From: a virus
Strand: one strand, 5' to 3'
DNA length: 48,566 bases
IMG/VR virus record: IMGVR_UViG_3300045999_007906
Coordinates: 1-48,566 of that record
In this document: one piece after another, positions 2,978 to 41,993 of the stretch
Position numbering within the stretch: the stretch's first letter is position 1
Layout of the letters: each line of letters begins with the position of its first letter
Position numbers and translations under genes: made by a program
Notes under the pieces: generated by a model
What the model was told of the DNA's origin: nothing
What the model saw: the letters and a program-made list of their open reading frames with translations, nothing else
Databases searched by the model: none

Positions 2978-2995
2978 GCATACATAATAGTATGC
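2978..2995 (+). promoter_or_regulatory. Hairpin over the gp13 start codon
   Basis: GCATAC (2978-2983), loop ATAATA, GTATGC (2990-2995) form a perfect 6-bp stem whose right arm contains the ATG at 2992-2994. The only Shine-Dalgarno-like sequence (AAGGA, 2963-2967) is 24 bases from the start. A TAG at 2971 excludes an upstream in-frame start. The structure may lower or time gp13 translation; this is inference. Confidence 0.35.
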
Positions 2996-3798
2996 CAGCA
3001 CCAAACTCAAGAGAATCTTTAATAGACTACGCTTTTAGGTCTCTAGGATCGCCTGTAATCGAAATAAATGTAGATATGCAGCAAGCCTACGATAGGCTTG
3101 ACGATGCACTCCAGTTTTTTGCCGAAAGGCATTTTGACGGGGTGGATCGTTGCTATTTTGATTATGTAATTACACAGCAAGATATAGACCGTAAATATGT
3201 TAATACTAATGCATTTGGTCCCATGGTTGGAGCAGATCCTTCTGGTAGACCGGATGGCCGTGATATTTTATCAATAATTAGAATTTTTCCATTCGGTACA
3301 CATAGCTCAAATAACTTTTTTGATATTCGATATCAATTGGCATTGAATGACTTCTTTGGTATTAATACCAATTTAAATACAAGTGGCTCAACTCCAGTTG
3401 CCACATATGATATCGCAAAAAGATACATCAGAATGATTGAGATGATGTTTGATCCAGAAAGATCAATTCGCTTCTCAAAAGTTACAAATAAACTTCAGAT
3501 AGAAACTGACTGGTCAGACATGCAGCCCGGAACACATTTGGCTGTAGAGGCTTATGTAATTCTAGATCCTGAGAGATATCCAGAAATTTATAACGATATT
3601 CTTCTTAAGAAGTATGTCACAGCTCTTATAAAGAGACAATGGGGAGCAAACTTATCAAAATTTGATGGGGTTCAGTTACCCGGTGGTATCGTGACAAGAG
3701 GTTCTTCTATATTTTCAGAAGCAATACAAGAAATAGCAATTCTTGAGGAACAAGTAAGATCTGCATATGAATATCCACCTGACTTCATGACAGGATAA
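2992..3798 (+). CDS. 13: Neck protein gp13 (head completion)
   Basis: A 268-residue protein, close to T4 gp13 (309). It begins 'NSRESLIDYAFRSLGSPVIEINVD', followed by 'QAYDRLDDALQFFAERH', and ends with 'VQLPGGIVTRG' and an 'EEQVRSAYEYPPDFM' helix. These are hallmarks of gp13 in T4-like phages. gp13 and gp14 assemble at the portal vertex after DNA packaging, seal the head and form the docking site for the tail. The gp14 gene follows two bases after the stop, the standard order. The start codon is the first possible one after an in-frame stop and lies in a small hairpin. Confidence 0.92.
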   Translation: MPAPNSRESLIDYAFRSLGSPVIEINVDMQQAYDRLDDALQFFAERHFDGVDRCYFDYVITQQDIDRKYVNTNAFGPMVGADPSGRPDGRDILSIIRIFPFGTHSSNNFFDIRYQLALNDFFGINTNLNTSGSTPVATYDIAKRYIRMIEMMFDPERSIRFSKVTNKLQIETDWSDMQPGTHLAVEAYVILDPERYPEIYNDILLKKYVTALIKRQWGANLSKFDGVQLPGGIVTRGSSIFSEAIQEIAILEEQVRSAYEYPPDFMTG

Positions 3799-3800
3799 AA

Positions 3801-4718
3801 ATGGCAACCAATCCTTATTTTAGAGATAACTATTCTGGCGAACAAAATGTAACCGAATCCATCGTTATTGAAACGATCAAAATGATGGGTAAGAACTGTT
3901 TTTACATTCCAAGAGAATATAATAATATTTCTGTTTTATATGGAGAAGATCCATTATCGTCTTTTAGTAATAAAATAGAAATAGAGATGTATCCTGCTAC
4001 AGTAAATGGATTTGGTGGCGCAGGGGATTTGGCTTCCAGATTTGGAATTGAAGTAAAGGACGATGTTACTTTAGTTGTTTCGAAAAAGAGATTCACCAAA
4101 GAAATAACTGAAAGATTTACTAATATAACCCGTCCAAGAGAAGGTGATTTAATTTACTTTCCTTTGTCAAAAACTTTTTTTGAAATCAACTTTGTTGAGC
4201 ATGAAACTCCGTTTTATCAACTAGGTAAATTATATACTTACACTCTATTCTGTGAAACTTTTGTCTTCTCACACGAAGAATTCAATACAGATTCTCCGTT
4301 GGACACGATTATGGATCGTTCAAAAGAAACATATTCGTTGTTTGTCAATGAGGCTGGTGGTACTTTCATGAACGAATTTACCATAGGAGATAAACTATAT
4401 CAGAACGGATATACATTCGGCTCATCGCCAAAGACAGCAGCAATTGTCAATTACAGTACAAGTGTCAAGCAACTTACACTATCTCCGATCAAGGGAACCT
4501 TTGTGTCTGGAGATGTTGTTGTGTCGAACGAATTTGGTATAACCGCATCTATGACTGGTGCTACATCATCTAATGTTGTCACCTACTACAATACTGAGAC
4601 CGATAACATTTCAGATATTGATAATCCATTTGATCTATTAGTAAGTGATTACTACACAGGAGTTACGCCAAGCCTAATTGATTATAGTGAGGATAATCCG
4701 TTTTCAGAGGGTATTTAA
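3801..4718 (+). CDS. 14: Neck protein gp14
   Basis: A 305-residue protein, somewhat longer than T4 gp14 (256). The N-terminus 'NPYFRDNYSGEQNVTESIVIETIKMMG' and the segments 'CFYIPREYNN', 'RPREGDLIYFPLSKTFFEINFVEHETPFYQLGK' (about residues 110-143) and 'LFCETFVFSHEEFNT' match the gp14 family. It joins gp13 as the neck connector between portal and tail. The C-terminal 90 residues are beta-rich and less typical, accounting for the extra length. It ends immediately before the gp16 start, so head-closure and packaging genes are co-transcribed. Confidence 0.92.
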   Translation: MATNPYFRDNYSGEQNVTESIVIETIKMMGKNCFYIPREYNNISVLYGEDPLSSFSNKIEIEMYPATVNGFGGAGDLASRFGIEVKDDVTLVVSKKRFTKEITERFTNITRPREGDLIYFPLSKTFFEINFVEHETPFYQLGKLYTYTLFCETFVFSHEEFNTDSPLDTIMDRSKETYSLFVNEAGGTFMNEFTIGDKLYQNGYTFGSSPKTAAIVNYSTSVKQLTLSPIKGTFVSGDVVVSNEFGITASMTGATSSNVVTYYNTETDNISDIDNPFDLLVSDYYTGVTPSLIDYSEDNPFSEGI

Positions 4719-5135
4719 ATGGCAGATATAACGAACAAAGAAAAACTTAATACTTTTTTAGAAATTTCAACTCCAGCTACAATGAAGAAAGAATCTTCCA
4801 TTGTAAAAAAGAATGTAGATGATGACTATGAATATGCTAGAGATAATATAAGAGAAATACTCGAAAAAGGTAAATTAGCTTTAGATGGCATTCTTCAGGT
4901 AGCCCAAGACGGAGACTCGCCTAGGGCATATGAAGTGGCTACAAATATGCTTAAAGCTCTCTCAGAGATCAATAAAGATCTTATGGATGTTCATGTTAAA
5001 GTAAGTGAAAGTGAAAAAACCACAATTAAACAAACAAACAATGCAATATTTGTGGGTTCAACTTTGGATCTTCAAGACATGATAAATAAAGAAAGAAGTT
5101 CAAAGAAAGCTATAATACAGGATAACAATGTTTGA
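4719..5135 (+). CDS. 16: Terminase small subunit gp16
   Basis: A 138-residue protein (T4 gp16 is 164). The central stretch 'DDYEYARDNIREILEKGKLALDGILQVAQ' (about residues 34-62), then 'SPRAYEVATNMLKALSEINKDLMDVH', is the helical coiled core of T4-type small terminases. It recognises DNA for packaging and stimulates the gp17 ATPase. The gene starts directly after gp14 and overlaps the next gene by 8 bases. In T4, gene 15 lies between 14 and 16; here gp16 comes before the gp15-like gene, a local order swap. Confidence 0.88.
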   Translation: MADITNKEKLNTFLEISTPATMKKESSIVKKNVDDDYEYARDNIREILEKGKLALDGILQVAQDGDSPRAYEVATNMLKALSEINKDLMDVHVKVSESEKTTIKQTNNAIFVGSTLDLQDMINKERSSKKAIIQDNNV

Positions 5136-8100
5136 TTCATTTTATAACGATTGCATTAAAAAGAACACGATAGCATTTGCTTCGCTATTTAATAACATTT
5201 ATGTCAATAGAGAGGATGATTCCGATTCTAAAAAAATCAAAGTTCCTCTTGTTTATGGCGGTAAAGAAAAGTACATTAGCCGCTTACAAAATCCATCAAG
5301 TATTTCTGAAAAAGATAAGCTTCAAATAACTCTTCCTATGATGAGTTTTGATATGTCTAATCTGCAATATGATACGCAGAGACATAGAAATAAACTTGAG
5401 TTTAATAAATTATTTTATCAGGAAGATGGAGAAACAAAAGCAAAGATAAAAATTGGTGAATATCCTTGCTTGATGCAATTCAATCTTACAATCTATACTA
5501 GAAATATTGAAGAAAATTTCCAGATTATAGAACAAATTGCTCCATATTTTACTCCAGAATATATTCTGACAATGGACTTTGATAAGACTCTTACAAGAGG
5601 AATCGATGTTCCAATCAATTTGGTTGCTTCAAAGATTGGAAACGATTATGAAGGCGGATTCGGAAATCGTAGAACTGTAGTTAGCACTTTGCAGTTTGTC
5701 ATGCGTTCTTATTTGTTCGGTCCAGAACGAGAAGCTACTCCAATTCTAACAACTGATTTCAATCTCAATACACAAGATAGCTTCTTGCAATTCATCACAG
5801 ATGTTCAAACTAATGATGATTTATATCTGAACAATCAATCGATAACAGTTACTTGGAGACAGGGAGGGATCTTCCCAAGAAATCCCACAATTCTGCTCAC
5901 CAATCTAACCACATACAATCAAGAAATAACATACGATCCTGAAGCATTTGATGTTGGGGATGGAACTAATAGTGTTACATTTACAATACCCGCAAATGCT
6001 CCGTTGCTACAACAACTTTATGTAAGAGTATTTTTTGGAACAGTATCAGACAGTTCTCCTGCAATTGAAATACGCTCCGCTAGCGGAAATATTTCTTTAT
6101 TGCGACAAGCTAATTTTGCTGGAACTTCTTTTAATGATTTGATGTCTTCCAATCATTATTATTTTACGCAGAGTGGTATTACTCAATTTGCTAGAAGTAA
6201 TAATCTTGTTTTAGCCTATAATTATGGTTCATATAATGATTTAAATATTAAAACCCCTGGACTACTTGAATATTATTATGCATATGGTTTGACATTCAGA
6301 GCAGATACTATAGCCAATCCTCAAATTCCTTTTGGTAGTGTTATACACAATGGATTATGGGCTGGAATAAGCTATGATCAGAACAGAGTGTTACCTGCAT
6401 TGGCTATCTATATGCGACCGGGAGCAAATGTAAATTTATATGCGAATCAAGGTGAAGGAGTATTTGGTACTACTCAAGGAACACTAGCAAATAGAAGAAC
6501 CAGCGAAGATATGTTTCAAGCAACATATGGTTCTAATTCTTATTATATCAATGGATTTTGGGGATGGAATGGTACTACCAGTACTATAAGTATAGGTTTA
6601 TATCCGAGTGCTGGTATAACAATAGAACCAGGATTCAGTGGATTTATTTTCGATAGAAACAATCAAAACAGATATCCAGATAGCGGAAAATATTCAACTG
6701 GAGTAACCCATTCTCAGGCTAGTCCATCTTTTAGAACTTTATTTGATCCAACATTTACACAAAAACTATATCCTTCTAGAGGAGCTACTGGATTAAGAGC
6801 TTGGCAAATAACTGCTTTTGGTACTAATAATCCAGCTACTATGTTATTTGATTCTGGTATTTTTTCTGGATCTACATTACCAAATTATCCTCCATACAGT
6901 AACTTAGATTATCTTGATACTTTTGATAAGATGAGATTACAGACTTATATGGATTGTTACAACATATTCCACAACGGAAATACTTATGTGATACCATCTC
7001 CATTTACTCCTAATTTGGTAACAGATATGTTAGGATATACTGCATATTCTGCTACCGGATTTACAGGCAGAGAAAATTTTGCAGGAAAATTTGGAACAAC
7101 TTATGTTGGTGGTTGGAACAAATTATTCGATTTTGTCTATGATGGAATAACCATTAATGGTAATCGTTATGTTCCACCATCTCCTTGTGTTGATATAATA
7201 TTTAATGATCATGAATTGCGATGGGGTCTAGGAGTAGGAGCAGATTCAAATATATTATGGAGATTAATGTCGTTAGTAAGCGGTTTAACAACTGCATGGA
7301 TTAATAAAGTTAAACAAGATCAATTTTGGCCACAACTAGAAGCCAAATATGCAGAATATCCTGGATTATCATTTGATCGTATATTTGAGTTTAAAAATGC
7401 ATTCCTTTTATATACTTCTGGACCTTTAAGTAAAAAAGGAATTCATGGCGGAATTCAATTTCCATTAGATGCGCTTCCACTACAAGAATTTTATGATAAC
7501 GAAGTTAAAAAATATTGGGGTGGTCTACAACAAGTTTCTGAACTAAGAAGTCCTGGATGTAAATTTGCTCCTGTGCATGTTAATAGACTTCCTAGATTAA
7601 AATCTCATGGTAGATTCCATGATACAACTAGTCAAAGTTTTTCTTTAGGAGTTACTTTACCATATGAGCTTATATACCACTATCCTTATGGTCAACCAAA
7701 TCAACCAGTTATAATTCAAGGTAGATATAGAAAAACAGGATATGCTCCTACTCCGGTTGATGCAATTACATTTGGTTTTGATGAATATTCAGCAATATCT
7801 CGTGATGTTAGTTCTGGATTAAATCAAGACCAGATAATTAATGCTTCTGATAAGTTGGTCCCTTGGTTTACAACCGACAATATTGGTCAAACAGGAACTG
7901 GTTTTGATGTAGGAATTTCATATAATACGCAATATTTTGAATCTAATGGTATACCAGAAATTGGTAATGGTGTGTTTGTATCGTTTTTTGGAGAATATGA
8001 TGAAGAAAATTTGAGATCTCTTGCAGGAACAAGATTATCTGAAAAATATGAACCGTTTTTTGCGATGAAAGACGAGTCTAGATTTGTTCGTGGAATAATA

Positions 8101-9177
8101 GAAGAGAACATGAGCCATGGTGTTTCGGGTATATTTATTTACAATAATATTCAATTTAATAGATCAGGTTATTTTATTCCTCATGGATATGAAAATTCTT
8201 GGTTTATGGATTTTATTCCGTCTTCTAGAAATGGTAATGCTAGGGGATTTACTTATACAGATCCTGCCATATTCTCAAAAACAAACTTTACAACAGATCC
8301 TAGAGTAAATGACAATTTTCAACCAATTAATTTTTATCACTCTTATAATGAAAATATTTTCATATCAAAATTATTAACTACTTTACCTCTTAACATTCTT
8401 AATCAATCAGTAATTTTTCAAGGACCAATTACTAATTTAGAAGATCCTTTTTATGGATTACATACAAAGTCATTTAATAATTTTAAATATAATGATGAAA
8501 TATTATTAAATCATATTTTGTGGGATATTGAAGTAGCAACTCATGGAAGAACATACGAATATCTTTCCAGTTCAGATGATATTACCACTGGAGAAGCACT
8601 TCGATATGAGGTCGGTGGCTTTAATAATAGTAAATTAAATTCTCCTCTTTTGAGTAAGGTGCGGTTATTAGCTACAGATTCTTCAGATCAAAATTTAATT
8701 TTACATAGAATCACGCTTCCAATACCTTATATTTTAACAACTGATTATGCAAAACCCGAACAAGATTCGTATTATGATAATTGGTATAATAATCATTTTG
8801 CGAATAATGTTTTAGCATCTAGTTATGATTCTACACGCGGAATAACTCTTGATAATATTAATCTCATTACTACAGGTAATAGAGATTTAGACTTTTATAC
8901 TAAATCAGTAGTTTCAGAGACTGATGGAACTTATTCGTGGAGAACTTTAAGAACAAATCCAGCAATTAGAAGATTTAGTGTAAATGTTTATGCTAATAAT
9001 TTATTGGTAGGAAATTTAACTCCAAGTAAATATCATCCTATGGGAGTTTGGTTAATAACAGATGAAGTATCAATTCTGCCGGATGGAACAACATTTAACA
9101 ATTATAATTTGAGGTTTGAATATAATGACGATGGTCCAATTACAGATGGAATTACAACTGCACCGTATAGAACATGA
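5128..9177 (+). CDS. 15: Giant fusion: gp15 tail-completion domain plus about 1100-residue extension
   Basis: A single uninterrupted 1349-residue frame. Residues 1 to about 205 are a good gp15: 'IAFASLFNNIYVNR', 'KVPLVYGGKEKYISRLQ', 'ITLPMMSFDMSNLQYD' and 'IIEQIAPYFTPEYILTM'. T4 gp15 is 272 residues; it caps the tail tube and sheath and joins tail to neck. The rest (about 230-1349) has no counterpart in gp15. It is rich in Asn, Gly, Ser, Thr, Tyr and Phe, with no signal peptide, coiled coil or membrane segment, and looks like a chain of beta-sandwich domains; one candidate is 'TNSVTFTIPANAPLLQQLYVRV' near residue 287. The codons become more AT-rich soon after the gp15 part ends. It lies between gp16 and gp17 with overlaps on both sides (ATGA at its end). 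The extension probably projects from the tail-neck junction as collar or adhesin; that is inference. Confidence 0.8.
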   Translation: MFDSFYNDCIKKNTIAFASLFNNIYVNREDDSDSKKIKVPLVYGGKEKYISRLQNPSSISEKDKLQITLPMMSFDMSNLQYDTQRHRNKLEFNKLFYQEDGETKAKIKIGEYPCLMQFNLTIYTRNIEENFQIIEQIAPYFTPEYILTMDFDKTLTRGIDVPINLVASKIGNDYEGGFGNRRTVVSTLQFVMRSYLFGPEREATPILTTDFNLNTQDSFLQFITDVQTNDDLYLNNQSITVTWRQGGIFPRNPTILLTNLTTYNQEITYDPEAFDVGDGTNSVTFTIPANAPLLQQLYVRVFFGTVSDSSPAIEIRSASGNISLLRQANFAGTSFNDLMSSNHYYFTQSGITQFARSNNLVLAYNYGSYNDLNIKTPGLLEYYYAYGLTFRADTIANPQIPFGSVIHNGLWAGISYDQNRVLPALAIYMRPGANVNLYANQGEGVFGTTQGTLANRRTSEDMFQATYGSNSYYINGFWGWNGTTSTISIGLYPSAGITIEPGFSGFIFDRNNQNRYPDSGKYSTGVTHSQASPSFRTLFDPTFTQKLYPSRGATGLRAWQITAFGTNNPATMLFDSGIFSGSTLPNYPPYSNLDYLDTFDKMRLQTYMDCYNIFHNGNTYVIPSPFTPNLVTDMLGYTAYSATGFTGRENFAGKFGTTYVGGWNKLFDFVYDGITINGNRYVPPSPCVDIIFNDHELRWGLGVGADSNILWRLMSLVSGLTTAWINKVKQDQFWPQLEAKYAEYPGLSFDRIFEFKNAFLLYTSGPLSKKGIHGGIQFPLDALPLQEFYDNEVKKYWGGLQQVSELRSPGCKFAPVHVNRLPRLKSHGRFHDTTSQSFSLGVTLPYELIYHYPYGQPNQPVIIQGRYRKTGYAPTPVDAITFGFDEYSAISRDVSSGLNQDQIINASDKLVPWFTTDNIGQTGTGFDVGISYNTQYFESNGIPEIGNGVFVSFFGEYDEENLRSLAGTRLSEKYEPFFAMKDESRFVRGIIEENMSHGVSGIFIYNNIQFNRSGYFIPHGYENSWFMDFIPSSRNGNARGFTYTDPAIFSKTNFTTDPRVNDNFQPINFYHSYNENIFISKLLTTLPLNILNQSVIFQGPITNLEDPFYGLHTKSFNNFKYNDEILLNHILWDIEVATHGRTYEYLSSSDDITTGEALRYEVGGFNNSKLNSPLLSKVRLLATDSSDQNLILHRITLPIPYILTTDYAKPEQDSYYDNWYNNHFANNVLASSYDSTRGITLDNINLITTGNRDLDFYTKSVVSETDGTYSWRTLRTNPAIRRFSVNVYANNLLVGNLTPSKYHPMGVWLITDEVSILPDGTTFNNYNLRFEYNDDGPITDGITTAPYRT

Positions 9178-10811: not shown

Positions 10812-13800
10812 ATGGCTGAACTAACACACTCACATAATATTAGCGGAACTTTAATCGGATTAACCCCAGGAAGTAACCCTTTAACAGTCGGATTGACGTT
10901 TTCTGTTGATGGTGTGTCTTTTTCCTCTGTAATTTTTGATATACTCGTTGCTTTAAATTCTTTTGAATATGAAGGAACATATACCGATATCAATGCCCTC
11001 AGAGCTGCGTTTGGTAGTTCTGAGATTATAGTAGCAGATAACACAAACGGCCTTGTTGTAAGCAATGTAGGATCTACATGGAATCATTATATTGGAGTTA
11101 CTTTATATTCTCCTAATAATAATATTTTTAACCCTGGATTAGCTGAAGAAATATATGATAGCGATTTACATTATCGAACAAGACCAAATTCTTTCAGCGT
11201 AAAATATGGAGCATTTGGTCAAACTGGTCCGAGTCAAATAGCAGAAGTTGCCTCTTCAACAAGAGGAGAGACTATTTCGTTTATACCGTTTAACATTGTT
11301 TCAGCGACTAACGGAAATGCTGGATCAACGCTAGGCTTAACGCTAAATTCTGCAAATATTCAAAGATTTTATGTTGGTATTGGTACAGGTGCAACTTTTT
11401 TTGGTATAGTATCATTACTCGGTTGTACTAATGCAATAACTTTAAATTCTTTAAACTTAACTTCTACTCAAATAAATGAAATAAATGCGGATTATTTAGA
11501 TCCTAATATTTCTGGTTCTGATTCAAAATTCAATACGCTTAGAAGAATTGTTGATACGTCGGGAACAACATATTTTAATACTTCCTACACTGAATTTGTA
11601 ATACCGAGACATATTCCAGCAGGAAATTATTACTTAATGGCTATTCCAAATTCGTTTTTTGGACTTGGAGCGTTTTCAACTACTGAATCCTTTTTAGCAG
11701 CAAATCTTAATTTACCTACTACCAATATTAATATTACAAGTAATATAACTCCTGGTCTTACTGCTATTTATAGTTTTTCTCCAGGAACAACCTTTTTTAC
11801 AACACCAATTTCTTCTAGAGTATCTAATCTTTCAAATGCTTTTTCATATGTTGATTATGCAGATACTACCTTTTCTGTTTTTGATCCAATCACTTTTAAT
11901 TTAGCAACATCCCCATTTGGAATCACAAATAATTTACTTGGAAATACATTTCATAAAATGGATTATGGAATAAATGGTAGAGGCACTACAAATTATGGCG
12001 GTGCTTATGCTAATAACCCAATATCATTTGTTTCTCCGTTATTTGGATTTATTCCGATTGGTTTGACTTCTGGTAATACTTTAACCGTATTATTAGATGG
12101 TATTACATTTTATGAAAAAATTTATAATCCTTATAATGTAAATTTTAATAATAGTAATTTTTCTCATTTTTATACAGTTAGTTCAAATGTTGGTAATAAT
12201 GCAAGATTTACACGACTAATAAATGAAGCTAATAATTTATCAGGTAAAAGAAATTTAAATCATATTAATAGAGCATATTATAGAGTAGATTTTAACAATC
12301 ATGCCAATCCTTGGGGTTTTACTGGATTTACATTTGGACAAGGGTCTACACAAAGTGAATTAAAAGTAATTTATGGAAATCCTGTAAACGGTGTGTCGTT
12401 CACTTTACCAATTAATACCGGATCTCCTTCTGATTTTTATGCATTAACAGGAACAGGCGTATATATCCCCATTCAAGGTGATAATAATGGAGTTACATTA
12501 ATTCCTGGTTCTTCTATTGAAGTTCACTATTCTAACAGACCATTAGGATATATTGAAAAATTAAATTTATACAATGGATCTGGTAATTTTGCTTTAGGTA
12601 TAACTATTGCTGATAATACAACTTTTTCCCCAAGAAATACTACTGAACTTGGATTTATTAGAAAAACATATGATCCATCAAATGTTGAAACTATTACTAT
12701 TCCAAATTTAAATGCAGTTGGAACTACGGGAACTGCAAGAATTTCATTTATACGAGCTGATGGTGTAAGTTACGAATTTGGTTCTACTCCAGTTACAACA
12801 CCATTTAGAACATATTCACCTGTTCATACACTTGGAGATATTTCTGGTTTGACCATAATTGAAACTTCTGGGAGAAATATTGCTCCAGCAGTAGATTTGA
12901 TGAGAATTACTGTAAACCATGGATTGACTAATATTGAAGCTGGAGTAGTAGGAAGAAATAATATTTACAGCAGATATTATATGGCTTCAAATGTTGATAA
13001 TATTAATACTTCTGGTAATTTTACCCCATTTTATTTTAGTTTTATATTAGATTCTATTGGTCCTGAACAGGTAGTTAATAATAGTATCACTGTTGCGAAT
13101 CGTAATTTACGCTCTTTTAGAGCAGCTGCTTTAGAGCGTGAACCTACCCTATTAGTAATATCTGGTACTGATATAACTATTCCGCTAAGAAATTATGTAC
13201 CAGTTGTTGGTTATACTGCCGCTAATGGTACTTTTATTCAATGGCCAGTTACCACTATCGAAGAAAATAGTTCATTAACCCAACTAATGGATTATTTTAA
13301 TGGTCCTGCACAAACAGAAGCAGAATTATTGGCACAATCTGAGGCATCTTATTATCAAAGTTATGATGCTGGTTATACATTAATGTTTGATAATGGTGAT
13401 AATCCTCAACCAGAATTTAATGGCGGTGAATGGTATCTTGCAAATCCAGGATCATTTTTAAGGTATTCAAGCGGAAGTACCTTTTATCCATCAACTGCAT
13501 TTACTTTCAATGGTTCTAATAGAAGTTATATAAATTATATCTTCTATGATTATAGAATTACAGGATTAACTTTATCATCAACATCATCAGTAGGTGTGCA
13601 AGATTCGTTAACAGCAACAATAATAGTAAATGATTTGCCACATGCATCTATTTTTGATGGTTTAAGATTACAGGTTCTTAATGGAAGTTCAGAACTGTTT
13701 GGTAAAAATATTCTATATTCAACTACAAACACTAATGAATATAGAATTCCTGGATATTCTACTATAGGAATAACTAATTTTGCTGCTTATTATACTGCAA

Positions 13801-15188
13801 CGCCAAGATCAATAACTAGTATCTTCGTTGGATCTGGTGTAACTTTAGGCGGAATTACTATTACTCCTCCTTCTGCTGGATGGCCAGCTAGTACTGACCT
13901 AACTGTTAGAGTATCACCAATATTTAAATTGTTTGTAAATCTTGATGCTGATAGATACAATGATCCGGCTAACAGTTATTTTAGAAATACAATATTTAGA
14001 ACTAGTGGTGCACCAACTGGTGGTGGAGGAGGAGGTGGTTCATCTAGTGGATCTGTTAGTGTCTCGGAATCTGTTGTTACTGGAGTTGCCTTTACCACTA
14101 CAGAAAGCGATTTCTATGCTGGATTCCTATGTGGCACAACTGCATATAACATCATAACAAATAATAGTACTTCTTCATTTAGTGTTCTTACAAATAGCAG
14201 CAGTGCTTATGCAAATGCAAAGGCAGCATTTGATTCTGGTTCATTGACGATAAACACTACTACAGACTTTGAAATTCATTCGTTGTTGAATTACATGGAT
14301 TATGGTGGAAATATAATTATAAGCCCAACGATTGATGGTCTACTTGGAAGCAATTATGAATACGATGTTCTCTTCTGTGAAGACAATAAGAGATATGGTG
14401 AACTCATGCGTATCGGTTCAGAAAAGAACCATGCAATTGTTATTGTCGGCACATCACTTGAAGAAGATGCTTCTTCGTTCACAGCACCAGCATATACGAA
14501 TCTAAATTCTGCTGGTCTTGTTGATGGATTGACATTTATGACATCAACCTCCGTCAATAAGGGAGAGTATGTATTCTCTGTGCTTGGATACAAGAATAGA
14601 ACCAGATTCTATGGTTCTGGAACTGACACTGTTCGTCTATATCTTTCATCTGATGTAGCAGGTTCTTACGCTCGTTCTTATGTCGAGAACAAGTATCACT
14701 TGTCAAGCTCGGGATCAGCTAGAGGTAGCATTAAGACATATTCTTCGATTACCCCAACCATCGTTGATCGTGATCTTGCAGGTTATTATTCACGCGGAAT
14801 AAACCCAATTTACATTCCAAGCGGAACAAATAAAGCTGCAATTTGGGGTGATGCTACAGGTATAACTACAGGAAATGATGCATATAGAAAATCAGCTTCT
14901 GTAGCAAAAAATACCAGCACTATTAAGCGAGAATTCAAAAAGATCTTTGAAGATTTCCAATTTGAGCAAAATAATGCTGGTACAAGAGCGCAATTTGTTT
15001 CAAGAGCAACAACAGTATTGGATAAACTGCAATCTGTCGGTGGTTTATCATCTTATACTTTAACATGCAACGAAACAAACAACACACCAGCAGTTGTTGC
15101 TCAGAAACGATTGGTTGTAGATTTAGTTATTGTTCCAAATAATTCGATTGAATCTATAGTACTAAATTTTGTTCTTAATCAAATATAA
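10812..15188 (+). CDS. 18: Tail sheath gp18 paralogue 1 with about 1070-residue N-terminal extension
   Basis: A 1458-residue protein. Only the last 370 or so residues (about 1090-1458) are sheath: 'DFYAGFLCGTTAYNI', 'FEIHSLLNYMDYGGNIIIS', 'RGINPIYIPSGTNKAAIWGD', 'FEDFQFEQNNAGTRAQF' and 'LTCNETNNTPAVVAQKRLVVDLVIVP' match the conserved C-terminal half of T4 gp18. Before this is a seven-glycine hinge (residues 1070-1076, bases 14019-14039), then Ser-rich linker. Residues 1-1069 are Gly/Ser/Thr/Asn-rich, likely all beta, and contain a repeated 'IGLTxGxxLTV' segment (15-37 and 414-431). Codon use is AT-rich in the extension and clearly less so in the sheath part, which resembles the capsid gene. 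There is no in-frame start near the hinge, so the sheath part cannot easily be made alone. The extension likely decorates the outside of the tail; inference. Confidence 0.8.
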   Translation: MAELTHSHNISGTLIGLTPGSNPLTVGLTFSVDGVSFSSVIFDILVALNSFEYEGTYTDINALRAAFGSSEIIVADNTNGLVVSNVGSTWNHYIGVTLYSPNNNIFNPGLAEEIYDSDLHYRTRPNSFSVKYGAFGQTGPSQIAEVASSTRGETISFIPFNIVSATNGNAGSTLGLTLNSANIQRFYVGIGTGATFFGIVSLLGCTNAITLNSLNLTSTQINEINADYLDPNISGSDSKFNTLRRIVDTSGTTYFNTSYTEFVIPRHIPAGNYYLMAIPNSFFGLGAFSTTESFLAANLNLPTTNINITSNITPGLTAIYSFSPGTTFFTTPISSRVSNLSNAFSYVDYADTTFSVFDPITFNLATSPFGITNNLLGNTFHKMDYGINGRGTTNYGGAYANNPISFVSPLFGFIPIGLTSGNTLTVLLDGITFYEKIYNPYNVNFNNSNFSHFYTVSSNVGNNARFTRLINEANNLSGKRNLNHINRAYYRVDFNNHANPWGFTGFTFGQGSTQSELKVIYGNPVNGVSFTLPINTGSPSDFYALTGTGVYIPIQGDNNGVTLIPGSSIEVHYSNRPLGYIEKLNLYNGSGNFALGITIADNTTFSPRNTTELGFIRKTYDPSNVETITIPNLNAVGTTGTARISFIRADGVSYEFGSTPVTTPFRTYSPVHTLGDISGLTIIETSGRNIAPAVDLMRITVNHGLTNIEAGVVGRNNIYSRYYMASNVDNINTSGNFTPFYFSFILDSIGPEQVVNNSITVANRNLRSFRAAALEREPTLLVISGTDITIPLRNYVPVVGYTAANGTFIQWPVTTIEENSSLTQLMDYFNGPAQTEAELLAQSEASYYQSYDAGYTLMFDNGDNPQPEFNGGEWYLANPGSFLRYSSGSTFYPSTAFTFNGSNRSYINYIFYDYRITGLTLSSTSSVGVQDSLTATIIVNDLPHASIFDGLRLQVLNGSSELFGKNILYSTTNTNEYRIPGYSTIGITNFAAYYTATPRSITSIFVGSGVTLGGITITPPSAGWPASTDLTVRVSPIFKLFVNLDADRYNDPANSYFRNTIFRTSGAPTGGGGGGGSSSGSVSVSESVVTGVAFTTTESDFYAGFLCGTTAYNIITNNSTSSFSVLTNSSSAYANAKAAFDSGSLTINTTTDFEIHSLLNYMDYGGNIIISPTIDGLLGSNYEYDVLFCEDNKRYGELMRIGSEKNHAIVIVGTSLEEDASSFTAPAYTNLNSAGLVDGLTFMTSTSVNKGEYVFSVLGYKNRTRFYGSGTDTVRLYLSSDVAGSYARSYVENKYHLSSSGSARGSIKTYSSITPTIVDRDLAGYYSRGINPIYIPSGTNKAAIWGDATGITTGNDAYRKSASVAKNTSTIKREFKKIFEDFQFEQNNAGTRAQFVSRATTVLDKLQSVGGLSSYTLTCNETNNTPAVVAQKRLVVDLVIVPNNSIESIVLNFVLNQI

Positions 15189-15194
15189 TAAATA
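15187..15194 (+). promoter_or_regulatory. Possible late promoter before sheath paralogue 2
   Basis: AATAAATA fits the T4-type late core (NATAAATA) and lies just before the ATG at 15199, where no Shine-Dalgarno sequence is seen. In this AT-rich DNA a chance match is likely. Confidence 0.22.
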
Positions 15195-15198
15195 ATAT

Positions 15199-16332
15199 AT
15201 GCCGATTACAACTACTACTCAATCAAATACATTTAATATATCTCCTGTATCTCCTACAGATCATTATACAGGATTTTTATGTTCAACTACAACATATAAT
15301 TTGCTGGGCGCAACTGCAGATGTATTTACAAATCTTGAAACAATTTCTGAATCTATTTCTACATTATCTTCAAGAACTACATATACGAATATAACCACTA
15401 ATAGTTTAACTGACAAAGAAATTCATTCAATTTTTAATTGTATGGAATACGGTGGTAAAATTGTACTTTCGGGCACAACTGGCGGATTGGCTTTATCATC
15501 TGCAAAAATTTCTGAAGTAATTTCGGAAGATGCATCTAGATACAATGAAGTTTTAAGCGTAGCAAAAGCTAGATTAAATTGCATTGCTATAATTGGTTCA
15601 GATAGAGATGTTAGCGGAAATTATACAAATCCAGATCAAGCTAATATTATTTCACAAGTAGATACTCAACTTGGAACTACTGGAACAACTGCAATATCAT
15701 ATCTTGCATGTACTGTTATAGGTCATAAAGACAGACCTAGATTTTATACTGGTTCTTCTTCGACAACGACCGGAATTACAGTATTTCTTGTTTCGGATGC
15801 AGCAGGAGCAAATGCAAGAGCATCTTCTCAGTCAAAACCATACTTAACATCTGCTGGTGTTTATAGAGGAGAGCTTTTAAATTACACAAATGTAACTCCA
15901 AAACTATCTTTTACTTCATCGACTACTTTAGCTACTAGAGGTATTAATTATTTTAATTATCTTCAGTCAAAAGGCAAATATTACTTGTGGGGAGATGAAA
16001 CTGGATTTAGAGATAGCACAAGCGCAAAAAGCTCATATGGATTTGCCAAAGCGTTTGTCTATATTAATAGAGAAACCACTTCTATTTTGGATGATTATGT
16101 ATTTGAATTCAATGATGCAACTACAAGATCAGCAATTAAATCAAAAATTCAAAATCTTTTAGATCCAATGGTTTCCAATGGAGCATTGGTTAGTTACGTT
16201 TTAATCTGCGATGAAACAAACAACCCACAATCAGTAATTAATCAGAGACAACTAAAAGTAGATCTAACAATAGTACCAAATCTACCAGTAAAGAGTATTA
16301 CACTCACATTTAGCATTTCTCTGCTATCATGA
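15199..16332 (+). CDS. Tail sheath gp18 paralogue 2 (compact)
   Basis: A 377-residue protein that aligns by eye over nearly its whole length with the C-terminal sheath domain of the preceding gene: 'DHYTGFLCSTTTYNLLG', 'DKEIHSIFNCMEYGGKIVLSG', 'ATRGINYFNYLQSKGKYYLWGDETG', 'LDDYVFEFNDATTRSAIKSK' and 'LICDETNNPQSVINQRQLKVDLTIVP'. The D/NETNN segment is a sheath signature. At this length it has only the inner sheath core that polymerises and contracts, lacking outer domains of T4 gp18 (659 residues). It uses more AT-rich codons than paralogue 1's sheath part. It may form a minor sheath ring or mixed sheath, or be the ordinary building block; the sequence does not decide. It overlaps the next gene by 4 bases. 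Confidence 0.8.
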   Translation: MPITTTTQSNTFNISPVSPTDHYTGFLCSTTTYNLLGATADVFTNLETISESISTLSSRTTYTNITTNSLTDKEIHSIFNCMEYGGKIVLSGTTGGLALSSAKISEVISEDASRYNEVLSVAKARLNCIAIIGSDRDVSGNYTNPDQANIISQVDTQLGTTGTTAISYLACTVIGHKDRPRFYTGSSSTTTGITVFLVSDAAGANARASSQSKPYLTSAGVYRGELLNYTNVTPKLSFTSSTTLATRGINYFNYLQSKGKYYLWGDETGFRDSTSAKSSYGFAKAFVYINRETTSILDDYVFEFNDATTRSAIKSKIQNLLDPMVSNGALVSYVLICDETNNPQSVINQRQLKVDLTIVPNLPVKSITLTFSISLLS

Positions 16333-17750
16333 ATATAGTTAATTACGGTCAAGTAGCAACACCAAGCGGTTTTAAAATACTTGCTTTTGTTACTCCATTG
16401 ACTCAAAGTGTTTTATCTGGAATTACAGTAAGTCAATTAAACCAAGATCAACTAACATATGTTGAATCACTAACAGATTTTGTTGATACTTTATTTGGAT
16501 ATACTGCAATAACATTTCAATCTGGTCCAGACACGGATGTTATTAAAAAAACAGATGTAGAATTGCACGGTATAATGACGATGCTTGAATATGGAGCATC
16601 TGTTTATGTCATGAATACATTAGGCTTAACGCTTTCAGGCGCATATACAACCAAAAATATTCAAAGCGTCATAAATTCTACAGGCGCAGAATGTATCGTA
16701 AATAATGTATTTGACGGTCTTACTGCTACTGGATTTACTGGAATTCAAGAAACTCCATTTATAATTCAAAATACAGAGTTTGAAAAAGATTTACTTGAAT
16801 ATTTTATTTCTGCGATAAATGATACAACTAGTACTGGAAGTACAGCCGGAACTCCATTTGTTTATAATGATCAAATTGGAGAAATTTATCCTAATTTTGA
16901 AGATGATATTGCACCTAATGAGTCATTTACAGAGGAATTTCCAACTTTAGGAATATTCTCATATGATACTTTTCCATCATCAGCATACGGATTAACAGAT
17001 TATCAAAATTATTCAGTATCAAATGGAAAATTAATTGATCAAAATTTTATTGAGTTGTTGGGTGTTAAGATACGAAATAGATGCATAAATCCTGAAAATG
17101 ATCCAGAAACTGTAAATGAACTATGGACTAAATCAGCAATTCCAATGATATATGATTTGGCTGGTCAATTTTCAAGATTAAAATTGGCTGGAATTCCTTG
17201 GGGTAGTACCTCAAATTTTCAAATAGGTCCTCTTTTGAATATAGTTCAGGAAGATGGAGAATATGTTCTTCCGTTTTTAAACAGTAATTCCGTAGCTGAA
17301 TATCGCAATACGATAATTGGACTTATAAACAATAAAATAAATTATGTCACTTTTTATAGTTTTGACGGTATATTTGGGTGTTATTTTTTAAGTGATCTAA
17401 CGTGCGAATCACAAACAGATAATTCTGCTCCATTTACACTAGCTCTTAGTGAAAAAAGTGTGTTTTTTGTTAACATAACCAAATATATCAAAAATAAAAT
17501 ATCAACAATATCCGAAAATTATGTTTTTGAATTAAATAATGATACGACTAGATTGTTATTGATATCTGAAATTTTGACTTTTATGAATAATTTGCTTTCA
17601 AGCGGAGCAATAAATAACTTCAATGTAGTGTCAGATGAAACAAATAATACCTTTGAAGATAGACTAAATAGGCGATTAAGGGTAGATATCGCCTACACGA
17701 CCAATCCAACAAATGATTTTGTGGAACAATCAATAATTATAATACCTTAA
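16329..17750 (+). CDS. Tail sheath gp18 paralogue 3 (divergent)
   Basis: A 473-residue protein, third in a row of sheath-like genes. Shared features: 'KILAFVTPLTQSVL' at the N-terminus, 'VELHGIMTMLEYGASVYVM' (about residues 77-95), 'ISENYVFELNNDTTRLLLISE' and 'NVVSDETNNTFEDRLNRRLRVDI' at the C-terminus. A central acidic and aromatic insertion of about 90 residues (roughly 170-260) is missing from the other two. It is the most diverged copy. A specialised end ring at the baseplate or neck is one possible role. The start overlaps the previous stop (ATGA). Confidence 0.7.
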   Translation: MNIVNYGQVATPSGFKILAFVTPLTQSVLSGITVSQLNQDQLTYVESLTDFVDTLFGYTAITFQSGPDTDVIKKTDVELHGIMTMLEYGASVYVMNTLGLTLSGAYTTKNIQSVINSTGAECIVNNVFDGLTATGFTGIQETPFIIQNTEFEKDLLEYFISAINDTTSTGSTAGTPFVYNDQIGEIYPNFEDDIAPNESFTEEFPTLGIFSYDTFPSSAYGLTDYQNYSVSNGKLIDQNFIELLGVKIRNRCINPENDPETVNELWTKSAIPMIYDLAGQFSRLKLAGIPWGSTSNFQIGPLLNIVQEDGEYVLPFLNSNSVAEYRNTIIGLINNKINYVTFYSFDGIFGCYFLSDLTCESQTDNSAPFTLALSEKSVFFVNITKYIKNKISTISENYVFELNNDTTRLLLISEILTFMNNLLSSGAINNFNVVSDETNNTFEDRLNRRLRVDIAYTTNPTNDFVEQSIIIIP

Positions 17751-17777: not shown

Positions 17778-18314
17778 ATGAGTAACGCAAATTCACTAAG
17801 TTATTTTAAACAAAAATTCAACGGTGGTACACGACAGAACCGCTTTGAGGTAGAAGGTAATTGGCCAAGCATAATTACTGAAAACCCCGAAACATGCTTT
17901 CATATAGTGTCTGCCAGCATGCCTCAATCCGATGTTGGAATTATTCAAATTCCATATAGAGGAAGAGTTCTAAACTTGGCTGGCGATAGAGAATATGAAG
18001 CATGGAATATAGTTGTTTATGATGACACAGGAACTAATTCTCTATGGAAAGCTTTTACTAGCTGGTCCAATAGAATCAATAAAATTCTTGGAAATGTTAC
18101 TGATTCAAACAATTTAAATTTTACTCGCACAAAAACAAATTGGAAAGTTAGACAGTTAAATACCACAAATAACGGAACACTTCGTGAACTGGAGCTACTT
18201 GGTTGTTGGCCTGCCTCTGTTGGTGCTTTGAATTTCAATGCTTCAAATGTTAATCCTGTTGTTTTTACTGTAACGATGAATTACGATCAATATAGGATAA
18301 CAAAATACTCATGA
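17778..18314 (+). CDS. 19: Tail tube protein gp19, copy 1
   Basis: A 178-residue protein (T4 gp19 is 163). It has the tube-subunit pattern 'SYFKQKFNGGTRQNRFEVEGNWP', 'FHIVSASMPQSDVGIIQIPYRGRVLNLAGDREYEAWNIVVYDD' and 'LWKAFTSWSNRIN'. Hexamer rings of this protein stack inside the sheath and form the DNA channel. The gene follows the sheath block after a 27-base gap and overlaps the second tube copy by 4 bases. It is the more canonical of the two and probably the main tube subunit. Confidence 0.92.
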   Translation: MSNANSLSYFKQKFNGGTRQNRFEVEGNWPSIITENPETCFHIVSASMPQSDVGIIQIPYRGRVLNLAGDREYEAWNIVVYDDTGTNSLWKAFTSWSNRINKILGNVTDSNNLNFTRTKTNWKVRQLNTTNNGTLRELELLGCWPASVGALNFNASNVNPVVFTVTMNYDQYRITKYS

Positions 18315-18883
18315 GCTGCGATAGCAAAATTTCAACTTTTAGAGATGCATTTGCATCATTTCCAAGAGGAAATAGATTTTCAATCTCCGGTCAAATCCCA
18401 AACTCTAATAATGGATGGGGTAACGATAATACTGGTGGCTTTCATATTCATGTCTTAGCCTTAAATTTACCTCCAGCGAACTTAACAACACTTAGATACA
18501 ACTACAGAGGAAGAACTCTTAAGAATCCAGGAGATAGACTATTTCCTTTCTGGAATGTAACCATTCTTGATGATACGGGTACAGATACTGTATGGGAGGC
18601 ATTCCATAAGTGGAGTCATAGCATCAATGATCATGATACAAATTTGAGAACGTCTGGTACAAACTATGATTCTTATAAACAAAACGGATGGATCGTTAAG
18701 CAACTTGGCCTTAACGGAGATACCATTAAGAGCGTAACGCTTGAAGGTTGTTTTCCTTACATTGTAGGACCAATAGAACTTGACATGAACCAGAGAAATA
18801 CTGTGTGTCAATTTAGCATGGTAATAGCATACGACAGCGTTGTCGATGTATTTACGAGAGATGGCACTATAAACATTACTTGA
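18311..18883 (+). CDS. Tail tube protein gp19 paralogue, copy 2
   Basis: A 190-residue protein with the same layout as the preceding gene: 'FRDAFASFPRGNRFSISGQIP', 'FHIHVLALNLPPANLTTLRYNYRGRTLKNPGDRLFPFWNVTILDD' and 'VWEAFHKWSHSIN'. It has a loop insertion near residue 33 ('NNGWGNDNTGG'). A second tube-fold gene could be a minor ring that starts or ends the tube (as gp48, gp54 or gp3 do in T4) or an alternative tube subunit. The GA-rich start region and ATGA overlap with copy 1 show coupled translation. Confidence 0.82.
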   Translation: MSCDSKISTFRDAFASFPRGNRFSISGQIPNSNNGWGNDNTGGFHIHVLALNLPPANLTTLRYNYRGRTLKNPGDRLFPFWNVTILDDTGTDTVWEAFHKWSHSINDHDTNLRTSGTNYDSYKQNGWIVKQLGLNGDTIKSVTLEGCFPYIVGPIELDMNQRNTVCQFSMVIAYDSVVDVFTRDGTINIT

Positions 18884-24854: not shown

Positions 24855-25376
24855 ATGGCACAGGCAGATTATCCGGTAAATATTAGTCAACTTAATAAAA
24901 ATTTCTATACATTTAAGTTGTCTAGAATACCAACTGTTACATTCTTTCTTCAAAAAGTAACTTTACCAGGAATTTTATCTCCAAATTTTGATCAACCTAC
25001 CAATTTAGGCGTTCCAGTCAAAAGGCCATTAGGAACTTATAATTTTGCCAATCTAGATGTCGAATTCATCGTTGATGAAAACATGACCAACTGGTTGGAA
25101 ATTTATAGATGGATGAGGAATATTGGTAACTTAGATTCTGATTGTACTTTTAACATTCCAGAAAATAAATTTACATCTACAGGAACACTCATAGTCCAAA
25201 AAAGTTCTTATACTGCAAATATTACTGCAACATTCTTTGATATTTTTCCGATATCTTTAGGTGGAATAATGTTTGATACGACGCTTCCAGCATCTGAGCC
25301 AGCAAGAGTAAGTGCTAGCTTTGCTTATACCTATTATAGCTTCAGCCCAGATCCTGGAAATACGACTTTAGATTGA
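24855..25376 (+). CDS. Tail-tube-like structural protein (gp3/gp48/gp54-type candidate)
   Basis: A 173-residue protein: 'NFYTFKLSRIPTVTFFLQKVTLPGI', 'VPVKRPLGTYNFANLDVEFIVDENMTNWLEIYRWMRNIG' (about residues 56-95), then 'SYTANITATFFDIFPISLGGIMFDT'. This is the beta-barrel layout of tube-fold proteins, with the 'NWLEIYRWM' helix equivalent to 'LWKAFTSWS' in gp19. T4-like relatives often have a small tail-completion gene right after gp23. It may be the tube initiator, the baseplate-tube cap or the gp3 terminator; I cannot choose. It follows the capsid terminator by 15 bases and lacks a visible ribosome-binding site. Confidence 0.6.
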   Translation: MAQADYPVNISQLNKNFYTFKLSRIPTVTFFLQKVTLPGILSPNFDQPTNLGVPVKRPLGTYNFANLDVEFIVDENMTNWLEIYRWMRNIGNLDSDCTFNIPENKFTSTGTLIVQKSSYTANITATFFDIFPISLGGIMFDTTLPASEPARVSASFAYTYYSFSPDPGNTTLD

Positions 25377-34793: not shown

Positions 34794-35458
34794 TGAATCG
34801 ATTATTGATAAAATTTCCAACAAGAAATAGACCAGAAAAATTTAAAACCGTATATCAAAAATATTACGATTATCTTTCTGGAAACAATGAAGTAAAATTT
34901 GTCATATCAATGGATGTTGATGATCCAACCATGAACAATGACAATATTAAAAAATGGTTAATAGACCATCCTTCAACTAAAAAATTTAATTACTCAGAAA
35001 ATAAATCAAAAATTCAAGCTGTAAATGCAGATCTAGATGGGGAAGATAGTGATGTTTTGTTATTAGCATCTGATGATATGATTCCTCAAATTAAAGGCTA
35101 TGATGATATCATATTCGATGAATATTTTAAAAATTTTCCATCCTTTGATGGAGCTATAAAGTTTAGTGATGGTTTGAGAAACGATGAATTGATGACTTTA
35201 TGTGTAATAGGATGGAAGAATTATAAAGATTTTGGTTACATATATCATCCAGAATATACTTCTTTATATGCAGATACCGAACAGACTTTAGTATTTAAGA
35301 AAAAAAATAAACTTGCCATCTCACCATTATGCATAATTAAACATGAATGGACAGGACATCCGTGGGATGCATTACATGCAAGAAATGAAAATTATGAAAT
35401 GTACGTCAAAGATAAGCTTATTTTTGATAAACATTTACCAGAAATACTATTAAAATGA
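34793..35458 (+). CDS. Putative GT-A fold glycosyltransferase
   Basis: A 221-residue protein. It opens 'RLLIKFPTRNRPEKFKTVYQKYYDYLSG', typical of GT2-like enzymes handling a nucleotide sugar, has 'FVISMDVDDPTM' (about residues 38-49), and a likely metal-binding 'LLLASDDMIP' (about 84-93) in place of DxD. A 'HPEYTSLYADTEQTLVFKK' segment follows. No membrane segment, so cytoplasmic. GTG 34790 is a possible earlier start; ATG 34793 in the TGATG overlap is preferred. Substrate unknown. Confidence 0.6.
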   Translation: MNRLLIKFPTRNRPEKFKTVYQKYYDYLSGNNEVKFVISMDVDDPTMNNDNIKKWLIDHPSTKKFNYSENKSKIQAVNADLDGEDSDVLLLASDDMIPQIKGYDDIIFDEYFKNFPSFDGAIKFSDGLRNDELMTLCVIGWKNYKDFGYIYHPEYTSLYADTEQTLVFKKKNKLAISPLCIIKHEWTGHPWDALHARNENYEMYVKDKLIFDKHLPEILLK

Positions 35459-36126
35459 AATATTTGACTTATTTAAATAGTGGATGCAAAGATATTTGCG
35501 ATAATATGTTAAAATCTGCAACTATTAATAATATATCTTTGCAAGATTTTATTATAGTTGCATTTGATCGACCTATATTTGATTATTATCAGAATAAAGG
35601 AATAGATGTTGAACTATTTTGTGACGTAGCAGAAGAGCCATATCATGAATGGACATGGGATGCTAATTCCAAATTTAGAGAACTAGTAAAAAATAAATGG
35701 ATATTGATTAAAAAATATTTTAACCAATACTCTTCTATTTGTTGGCTTGACACTGATGTTGTTTTTTTAAAAAATCCATCTGATGTTTTTAAAACTTTAT
35801 CAAAGCCAACTTTTCAAATAGATTATCCTGCTTTATGTGCATGTACGGGGTTGATGTATTTTCCTGACTGCGACTATTCACGATTTATAATAGAAAATCT
35901 TGGAAATCAAAATACTGAAGACGATCAACTTATCTGTAATAATCTATTACAATCTCATAGAGAAAAATATGATTTTTTTGATTTGAATTTATTTCCAAAT
36001 GGTGGGTATTTTTACGATAAAAAAGGAACCACAATTGAACAATCTATAATGCATCATTGCAATTATATTGTGGGATTAAATAATAAAATTAATAGATTAA
36101 AAAATAATAATATGTGGTTTATTTAA
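35455..36126 (+). CDS. Putative nucleotide-diphospho-sugar transferase (DxD type)
   Basis: A 223-residue protein with 'SSICWLDTDVVFLKNPSDVF' (about residues 91-110), where D-T-D is the metal- and sugar-nucleotide-binding motif, followed by 'CACTGLMYFP', 'NTEDDQLICNNLL' and a final 'MHHCNYIVGLNNKINRLKNNNMWF'. This is the order in the 'nucleotid_trans' family (GT77-like), known from plants, algae and protists as well as bacteria and viruses. Substrate unknown. ATGA overlap on the left, TAATG on the right. Confidence 0.65.
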   Translation: MKYLTYLNSGCKDICDNMLKSATINNISLQDFIIVAFDRPIFDYYQNKGIDVELFCDVAEEPYHEWTWDANSKFRELVKNKWILIKKYFNQYSSICWLDTDVVFLKNPSDVFKTLSKPTFQIDYPALCACTGLMYFPDCDYSRFIIENLGNQNTEDDQLICNNLLQSHREKYDFFDLNLFPNGGYFYDKKGTTIEQSIMHHCNYIVGLNNKINRLKNNNMWFI

Positions 36127-36857
36127 TGAAAAAAAGATTGATAACATATATTTGGGAATGCTCTATCGATGAGCGAGATAGAGAAATTTATGACACATTA
36201 GACAAAAATTATAATTCTAAATTATTTGATGAAATTTTTATTTTTAGTGAAAGCGATATTAGTGATAAATTAAAAATTTATAAAAATGTTAATATAATAA
36301 AAATAAATCATAGGCCCACTTTTCAGTTTATGTTTGAATATATTAATGTAATAAGTAACAATGAAGATATTAATATTTTAGCAAATAGCGATATATTTTT
36401 TGATGAAACACTTAAATTAATAGAAAATATAAACGAAGATGAATTTTATTGTGTAACTAGACACGAATTAGATGGAAATTTATTTTTTGAAAAATTTAAT
36501 CACGAAGTTTTAGGTAATTATAGTGTATCACAAGATGTTTGGATTTGGAGGGGACAGTTTAAAGCTTATGATTGTGATTTTTTTATTGGGTATCCTGGAT
36601 GTGATAATAAATTAGCTTATAGAATAGTAGTTGCTGGATACAAAATTAAAAATCCTTGTTTGAGTTTAAAATGTTATCATAATCATTCATCAAAAATAAG
36701 ACCTGGATCATCTAAAACAAATGGAGAGGGTTATAAAAATTCTCTAACTCCAAAAGTTATTATAACACCATCTACAATAACAGAAAACTCTAAATGGGCA
36801 ATATTGAGCGTTAAACCAGGTTTATGTGAAATTTTAACTACATTAGACAATTTATGA
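36126..36857 (+). CDS. Putative glycosyltransferase
   Basis: A 243-residue protein. The ATG at 36126 within TAATG is preferred over the in-frame GTG/ATG-type start at 36114. 'INILANSDIFFDETL' (about residues 81-95) resembles the donor-site acidic motif of GT-A enzymes; 'YCVTRHELDGNLFF' and 'SQDVWIWRGQF' follow, and 'IGYPGCDNKLAYRIVVAGYKIKNPCLSLKCYHNH' is the likely acceptor part. I have seen this layout among proteins of viral sugar clusters but cannot name a GT family with certainty. Confidence 0.55.
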   Translation: MKKRLITYIWECSIDERDREIYDTLDKNYNSKLFDEIFIFSESDISDKLKIYKNVNIIKINHRPTFQFMFEYINVISNNEDINILANSDIFFDETLKLIENINEDEFYCVTRHELDGNLFFEKFNHEVLGNYSVSQDVWIWRGQFKAYDCDFFIGYPGCDNKLAYRIVVAGYKIKNPCLSLKCYHNHSSKIRPGSSKTNGEGYKNSLTPKVIITPSTITENSKWAILSVKPGLCEILTTLDNL

Positions 36858-37699
36858 TTTTTACTAAAGAAGAATTTAGGCCAATACCATCATATCCGAC
36901 ATATCCGCCTTATCACACAGGCGATTACATTGAAGATTATTTTTACAATTGGTTTATAAAAAATAATATTCAGGTGAATCGTGATTATATTGCTATTAGT
37001 TGGACTACTTTATATTGTGAAAATAAAGATCAAACTATACAGCAATTTTTATCATCATTAGATCAAACTAAAAAATATTTTACAGTTTGTCAGCACGACG
37101 ATGCACCCAAACATATATTACCAAAAGATACTATGGTATTTTCTGCATCTAGATCAAGAATTACTGATCTGACCAAAGATCAAATTCCAATACCTCTTAT
37201 TTGCTCTTCTATACCAAAACAATCAAATGTAGAAAAAGATATTTTTGCATCTTTTGTTGGATCATTTACACATCCATTGAGAATAGCTCTTTATAATTTA
37301 TGTAAGTCGCAGCCAAATTATTATTTTTCAGGACAACCTTGGAACCCAAAGGTAAATGATAATAAACTCCAAGAATTTTTGCATATTACTAATAGAAGTA
37401 AATTTTGTCTATGTCCTAGAGGGTATGGTAATACTAGCTTCAGAATGTATGAAGCTATGCAGCTTGGATGTATTCCTGTCTATATAAGTGACGATTTTCA
37501 TATTCCTTGGAATGATGAAATAAATTGGAACGATATAGCAGTACTTATACCATCTGATGATATTTTGTATTTACCTGAAATATTAAAATCGATATCTGAA
37601 GAGAAACTTCAAACTATGCAAAATAATATTAAAAAATATTATAATCAGTATTTTACATTAGAGGGAATGTGTGAAAATATTATAAAGAGAATTATATGA
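36854..37699 (+). CDS. Exostosin-family glycosyltransferase (GT47-like)
   Basis: A 281-residue protein. Residues about 182-235 carry the exostosin signature: 'SKFCLCPRGYGNTSFRMYEAMQLGCIPVYISDDFHIPW'. The upstream half ('FTVCQHDDAPKHIL', 'FASFVGSFTHPLRIALYNLC') is the GT-B N-terminal domain. Eukaryotic exostosins extend heparan-type chains; bacterial and viral members act in surface polysaccharides. No signal or membrane anchor, unlike eukaryotic forms. 4-base overlaps with both neighbours. Confidence 0.8.
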   Translation: MIFTKEEFRPIPSYPTYPPYHTGDYIEDYFYNWFIKNNIQVNRDYIAISWTTLYCENKDQTIQQFLSSLDQTKKYFTVCQHDDAPKHILPKDTMVFSASRSRITDLTKDQIPIPLICSSIPKQSNVEKDIFASFVGSFTHPLRIALYNLCKSQPNYYFSGQPWNPKVNDNKLQEFLHITNRSKFCLCPRGYGNTSFRMYEAMQLGCIPVYISDDFHIPWNDEINWNDIAVLIPSDDILYLPEILKSISEEKLQTMQNNIKKYYNQYFTLEGMCENIIKRII

Positions 37700-40453: not shown

Positions 40454-40566
40454 TGCCTCTTGATATAAACGAAATTCATTTAAAAAAGTATAAAACAGAT
40501 GGAAATATCAATTATGAACCATCATGTAATCATGAAGTTAAATGTTTGTTTTTGGTAATGGTATAA
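40453..40566 (+). CDS. 37-codon micro-ORF linking two sugar genes
   Basis: ATG at 40453 inside the GT10 gene's stop (TAATG); stop TAA at 40564-40566, two bases before the next ATG. Protein begins 'MPLDINEIHLKKYKTDG' and ends 'CLFLVMV'. It may be a remnant of a lost gene that keeps translation running across the gap. A TGG-TATAAT (TATAAT at 40562-40567) also touches the next start. Confidence 0.3.
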   Translation: MPLDINEIHLKKYKTDGNINYEPSCNHEVKCLFLVMV

Positions 40567-40567
40567 T

Positions 40568-41203: not shown

Positions 41204-41215
41204 CATATTCATTAC

Positions 41216-41991: not shown

Positions 41992-41993
41992 TT

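Follow-up and report, generated by a model that had tools for sequence, protein, structure and literature searches.

Descriptions of contractile tails generally regard the terminator ring as an internal joint. The T4 version is a gp15 hexamer, which completes the tail and is bound to gp3 and to the sheath's last ring (PMC3004832), and gp15 residues 203-245 are in contact with the C-terminal part of gp14 (PMC12270204). The T4 protein (PDB IDs: 4HUD, 4HUH, 9MKB) has 272 amino acids and carries no extension. What T4 does have at this place is the whiskers and collar of fibritin (Wac), a neck appendage that loops onto gp15 (PMC3004832) as a separate trimeric coiled-coil protein not fused to it. 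Neck appendages are also found in cyanophage A-1(L), where the gp82-gp81-gp80 fibers are separate trimeric proteins mounted on the pentadecameric neck ring and not on the terminator, and where the carbohydrate-binding module on the neck fiber did not bind the host (PMC10966104).

The window analyzed here is a stretch of 48,566 nucleotides, positions 1 to 48,566 of the IMG/VR virus record IMGVR_UViG_3300045999_007906, and it encodes a gp15 of a very different size. The gene at 5128-9177 on the plus strand runs from ATG to stop without an internal stop, giving a fusion protein of 1349 residues, gp15 followed by a long C-terminal extension. Upstream on the same strand there are encoded gp13 (neck, head-tail adaptor, by PHROGs; 2992..3798), gp14 (neck, head closure; 3801..4718), which is the expected partner of the gp15 ring, and a gp16-like terminase small subunit (4719..5135) that shares 8 bases with the start of the fusion gene. 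Downstream is the large terminase gene, gp17, and then the tail sheath genes. The order gp13, gp14, gp16, fusion, gp17, sheath is the position in the neck-packaging block expected of the gp15 family, and T4 gp15 lies in the same block.

The gp15 part, a tail terminator or tail sheath stabilizer, comprises residues 1-236 (5128..5835, plus strand) and is recognized by profile, sequence, and fold. Pfam aligns residues 5-222 to T4-gp15_tss (PF16724) with E = 2.2e-51 and 174.8 bits, where the cutoff for membership is 25 bits, and PHROG 227, tail sheath stabilizer, matches at 2.4e-54. Phmmer against the sequences of the PDB finds T4 gp15 (4HUH/3J2M) at 4e-23. An AlphaFold2 (AF2) model of residues 1-345, for which 47 sequences were used, has a good gp15 core with many blocks at pLDDT 80-89, and superimposes on 4HUH with Z = 17.7 over 173 residues at an rmsd of 3.0 Å, the fold alignment having about 28% identity to the homologous T4 core. 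The first-pass annotation, made from the letters alone, had called the N-terminus gp15 and had proposed structure prediction of that part as a check, and the 4 kinds of evidence bear the assignment out. It had also drawn the boundary at residue 205; a gp15 followed by an added part is indeed what is found, but the added part begins near residue 237. The fold itself ends near residue 203 in the AF2 model, which has a folded core at about 1-203 and a poorly modeled, low-confidence linker at 204-236.

The frame is real. A scan of IMG/VR for the fusion protein finds 19 loci, of which 11 are complete over residues 1-1349 and several partial ones cross the junction. No fusion contig has an internal stop, and TGA directly follows the frame in all of the complete ones. 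With the gp15 part alone as query, only contigs of this clade are returned and no unfused member of the clade is seen. Base composition passes smoothly across the junction of gp15 and the extension, without a break. The whole frame is translated and under purifying selection, with dN below dS throughout. Hence the open frame of 1349 residues that had been read from the single sequence is confirmed in full-length relatives, the proposed search for the same fusion in related genomes came back positive, and a missed stop or an assembly join near 5800-5900, named in advance as what would overturn the claim, is excluded in practice by the continuous frame in many contigs. An artefact of assembly or frame has nothing that we found in its favor, the junction being identical in contigs from different samples and dN being well below dS along the whole frame, and we give that explanation a negligible probability.

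The extension, residues 237-1349 (1113 amino acids; 5836..9174, plus strand), is about 5 times the size of gp15, at about 125 kDa, and has no detectable relative outside the clade. Pfam and a sequence search of the PDB each gave no match even at E values up to 10. No relatives beyond the clade were found among GenBank phages or in alignment scans of IMG/VR, and a scan of 84,980 bacterial and archaeal species genomes gave no match. A hidden Markov model search of all open reading frames in about 80 related loci found nothing convincing (best E = 0.15), and the extension contains no tandem or internal repeats. AF2 on the whole extension with 10 sequences gave a useless model with a mean pLDDT of 28. 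Only for the first part, residues 237-330 (5836..6117, plus strand), does AF2 predict a fold, a low-confidence Ig/FN3-like sandwich with 7 strands in the roughly 90 residues of 238-327, at pLDDT about 43-63. Foldseek lists FN3 chains lower in its results with probability 0.87-0.91 but E about 0.08, for an aligned range that is not given, and VIA-align of the AF2 model has no FN3 or Ig chain in the best 50 matches listed, all of which are filled by the gp15 domain. An FN3-like nature of residues 238-327 is, on this modeling, a suggestion only. Likewise, the beta-rich character that had been read into the entire extension is upheld just for this sandwich and not for the whole. The extension is a new protein family.

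Comparison of the extension inside the clade gives a pattern. In blocks of 75 residues, identity is 93-100% over residues 1-225 and falls to 32% in 826-900. The neighboring gp13, gp14, gp16, and gp17 are about 88-100% identical where the extension falls to about 58%. By Nei-Gojobori counts against 6 relatives, the more distant contigs have dS of about 0.9-2.3 in core and extension alike, whereas dN rises from 0.024-0.036 in the core to 0.07-0.39 in most of the extension and reaches 0.26-0.62 in the hypervariable stretch at residues 821-975 (7588..8052, plus strand), which stands out by both block identity and dN. At similar synonymous divergence, the extension has 3-15 times the amino acid divergence of the core. 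Within the extension there are blocks of invariant polar and aromatic residues at 592-761 with variable stretches on both sides, and a conserved stretch at residues 717-760 (7276..7407, plus strand) reads GLTTAWIN-VKQDxFWPxLxAKY..YPGLSFDxIF. Raised amino acid divergence with dN still below dS is what a surface domain that varies under constraint would show, and, as far as sequence comparison can indicate, the variability fits a host-facing surface role.

To place the size of the fusion, we compared gp15 lengths in other phages. The complete gp15 frames of 79 IMG/VR relatives have 220-349 residues, and GenBank gp15s are similar (HTVC008M, 271; Melnitz-3, 273; P-SSM2, 280; S-WAM2, 265 residues), so 1349 residues is as unusual as the first-pass annotation had said, although a length near 270 is typical of the family and does not define it. 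Its further suggestion of a structure not known for this position has to be qualified, as extended gp15s do exist elsewhere. The gp15 of Pelagibacter phage Mosig EXVC030M (QOI69014.1; L030:11986-13584) has 532 residues, and a fold search against viral models (BFVD) returns a 532-residue entry at the top and also the gp15s of Vibrio phage V09 (434 residues) and Campylobacter phage CPt10 (456 residues). The latter two have a gp15-like core plus extra sequence, as here, but are far shorter than the fusion. Mosig gp15 is also T4-like and is extended at its C-terminus by about 280 residues, about a quarter of the addition described here, and the HMM search with the extension finds no similarity to it at the Mosig locus. 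A LamG-like domain was suspected by eye in the Mosig addition, and Pfam gave none. Extended gp15 is therefore a kind of protein already present in sequence databases, of which the 1113-residue addition is the extreme; a search of the literature found no paper on extended gp15s or on the role of the extra part. As an isolated phage with an uncharacterized gp15 addition, Mosig is a good laboratory model. Separately, gp14 has about 470 residues in P-SSM2 and a relative (L042:1574-2986, L044:6574-7986), and the one of these cyanophage proteins that was read is extended at the C-terminus by Gly-rich sequence, so that additions are not limited to a single neck ring.

The window has a second tail protein with a large addition. 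Three successive tail sheath-like genes occupy 10812-17750 and encode 1458, 377, and 473 residues. Sheath paralogue A (10812..15188, plus strand; 1458 residues) has a variable N-terminal extension of 1085 residues, a Gly/Ser linker, GGGGGGSSSGS, and a conserved sheath core, and paralogue B (15199..16332, plus strand; 377 residues) is core only. Nearly all of sheath B aligns with residues 1099-1449 of sheath A, which marks roughly the first 1085 residues of sheath A as added at the N-terminus. Compared between contigs, this added part has 26-92% identity, against 84-100% for the core. The same pattern of a variable extension on a conserved core supports a common outward role for the additions on gp15 and sheath A. 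Homology between the 2 was considered, and no sequence similarity was detected. The nearest outgroup loci (L045, L046, L048) have a single sheath gene of about 400 residues in the stretch covered, and an ordinary gp15. Extra domains on a tail shell protein are known from the type 3 multi-domain sheath proteins, where they are proposed to help adhesion (PMC9230969). Those extras are on the sheath and often Ig-like, whereas here the terminator is extended and the sheath A addition is N-terminal to a complete core. There are also 3 tail tube-like (gp19) genes in the window, at 17778-18314, 18311-18883, and 24855-25376.

The best reading of the locus, to which we assign a probability of roughly 0.55, is a T4-type terminator gp15 with 6 covalently joined, variable, adhesin-like neck appendages. 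The attachment of the extension to gp15 is well supported, and we infer how many copies there are, where they sit, that they point outward, and that they adhere. The gp15 part would assemble in the usual way, as a hexameric ring seated on gp3 and the final ring of the sheath and joined to gp14, and the flexible stretch at about 204-236 would lead to one outward appendage of about 125 kDa per subunit. The 6 per virion at the neck agree with the 6 copies at the top of the tail that had been proposed from the sequence, a number that draws its support from the T4 hexamer (PMC3004832). The appendages would emerge from the ring close to the gp14-contacting residues, with the Ig/FN3-like domain first. 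An outside position is expected for them, as the interior offers hardly any space for 125 kDa per subunit. Each is most likely an adhesin-like module in contact with the surface of the host, its glycans, or the surroundings, and varies under selection by the partner it meets. Since the T4 whisker protein loops onto gp15, the gp15 site already carries appendages in a known phage, and the A-1(L) neck fiber module indicates that neck appendages need not be receptor binders. We counted in favor of an appendage that other T4-like gp15s carry smaller additions, and in favor of an adhesin that surface adhesins likewise have variability peaking in one stretch. Counted against an adhesin are that the searches of the extension turned up no domain with a known role in binding, and that the sole part for which AF2 offered a fold is a low-confidence prediction, the modeling having failed on the rest. 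More tentatively, and in our opinion doubtfully, the 6 giant variable arms on the terminator ring might act together with variable arms on the sheath paralogue as a second, head-proximal host-contact apparatus, in which case contact with the cell or its glycans would involve the neck and the shaft of the tail as well as the baseplate.

Other functions for the same appendage have to be weighed; the first-pass annotation had itself named a collar, a whisker replacement, or a receptor-binding structure as possibilities. The extension could play a structural part, as a collar or clamp giving stability to the joint of neck and sheath, or be a covalent dock for folded-back tail fibers that replaces the T4 whiskers, its variability then reflecting co-evolution with the fibers or with the sheath A extension. 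The looping of fibritin onto gp15 (PMC3004832) is in line with that, as are the separate decoration proteins that the terminator ring of phage 812 bears and that are thought to reinforce it (PMC12886913), and the enlarged sheath A encoded nearby; but the extension is far more variable than the adjoining neck and terminase genes, and no sequence similarity was detected between the gp15 and sheath A extensions, and we consider this rather improbable. A search with the fibritin profile PF07921 gave no match in 4 records of the clade, and the controls were equally blank. An enzymatic role at the neck, for example in cutting surface glycans, seems to us quite unlikely. The large size of the extension and the invariant polar and aromatic blocks between variable stretches would suit an enzyme, as in some tailspikes, but neither Pfam nor the PDB sequences offer a match, and at the head-proximal end of the tail an enzyme would be far from the surface at first contact.

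One more alternative, to which we attach a low probability, is cleavage of the chain after translation into gp15 and a structural protein that works independently of it. This alternative draws on the sister group of contigs (L050, L051, L141-L149), in which the gene right after that for a 220-residue gp15 is a separate one, about 820 codons long and of no known family (L050:6663-9119, L051:2001-4469), at the same place as the extension of the fusion. This shows that a large gene at the site after gp15 is not confined to a single lineage. However, the frame is joined in all members of the clade, and the separate 823-residue protein, which was tried as a homolog of the extension, has no detected similarity to it.

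Under the reading as covalent neck appendages, a conserved, variable addition of 1113 residues would mean that uncultured T4-like phages can mount surface appendages on the terminator ring. Surprise attaches to the site and the size: gp15s with additions were previously in the databases, and it is the family of the extension that is new. The fusion is a clear protein for cryo-EM or proteomics to look for. The phage need not have it as the only adhesin, because ordinary fibers are present, a 113-kb contig of the clade (L018) encoding a collagen-like tail fiber and tail spike-like proteins. The same contig encodes a 1404-residue protein without a PHROG match (L125:11257-15468, minus strand). The window itself has a sugar gene cluster at 35455-48323, with glycosyltransferases (GT47, fucosyltransferase family 10, group 1), UDP-galactopyranose mutase, a GHMP kinase, an NDP-sugar epimerase, and a transaldolase, which could modify virion proteins or host surface sugars.
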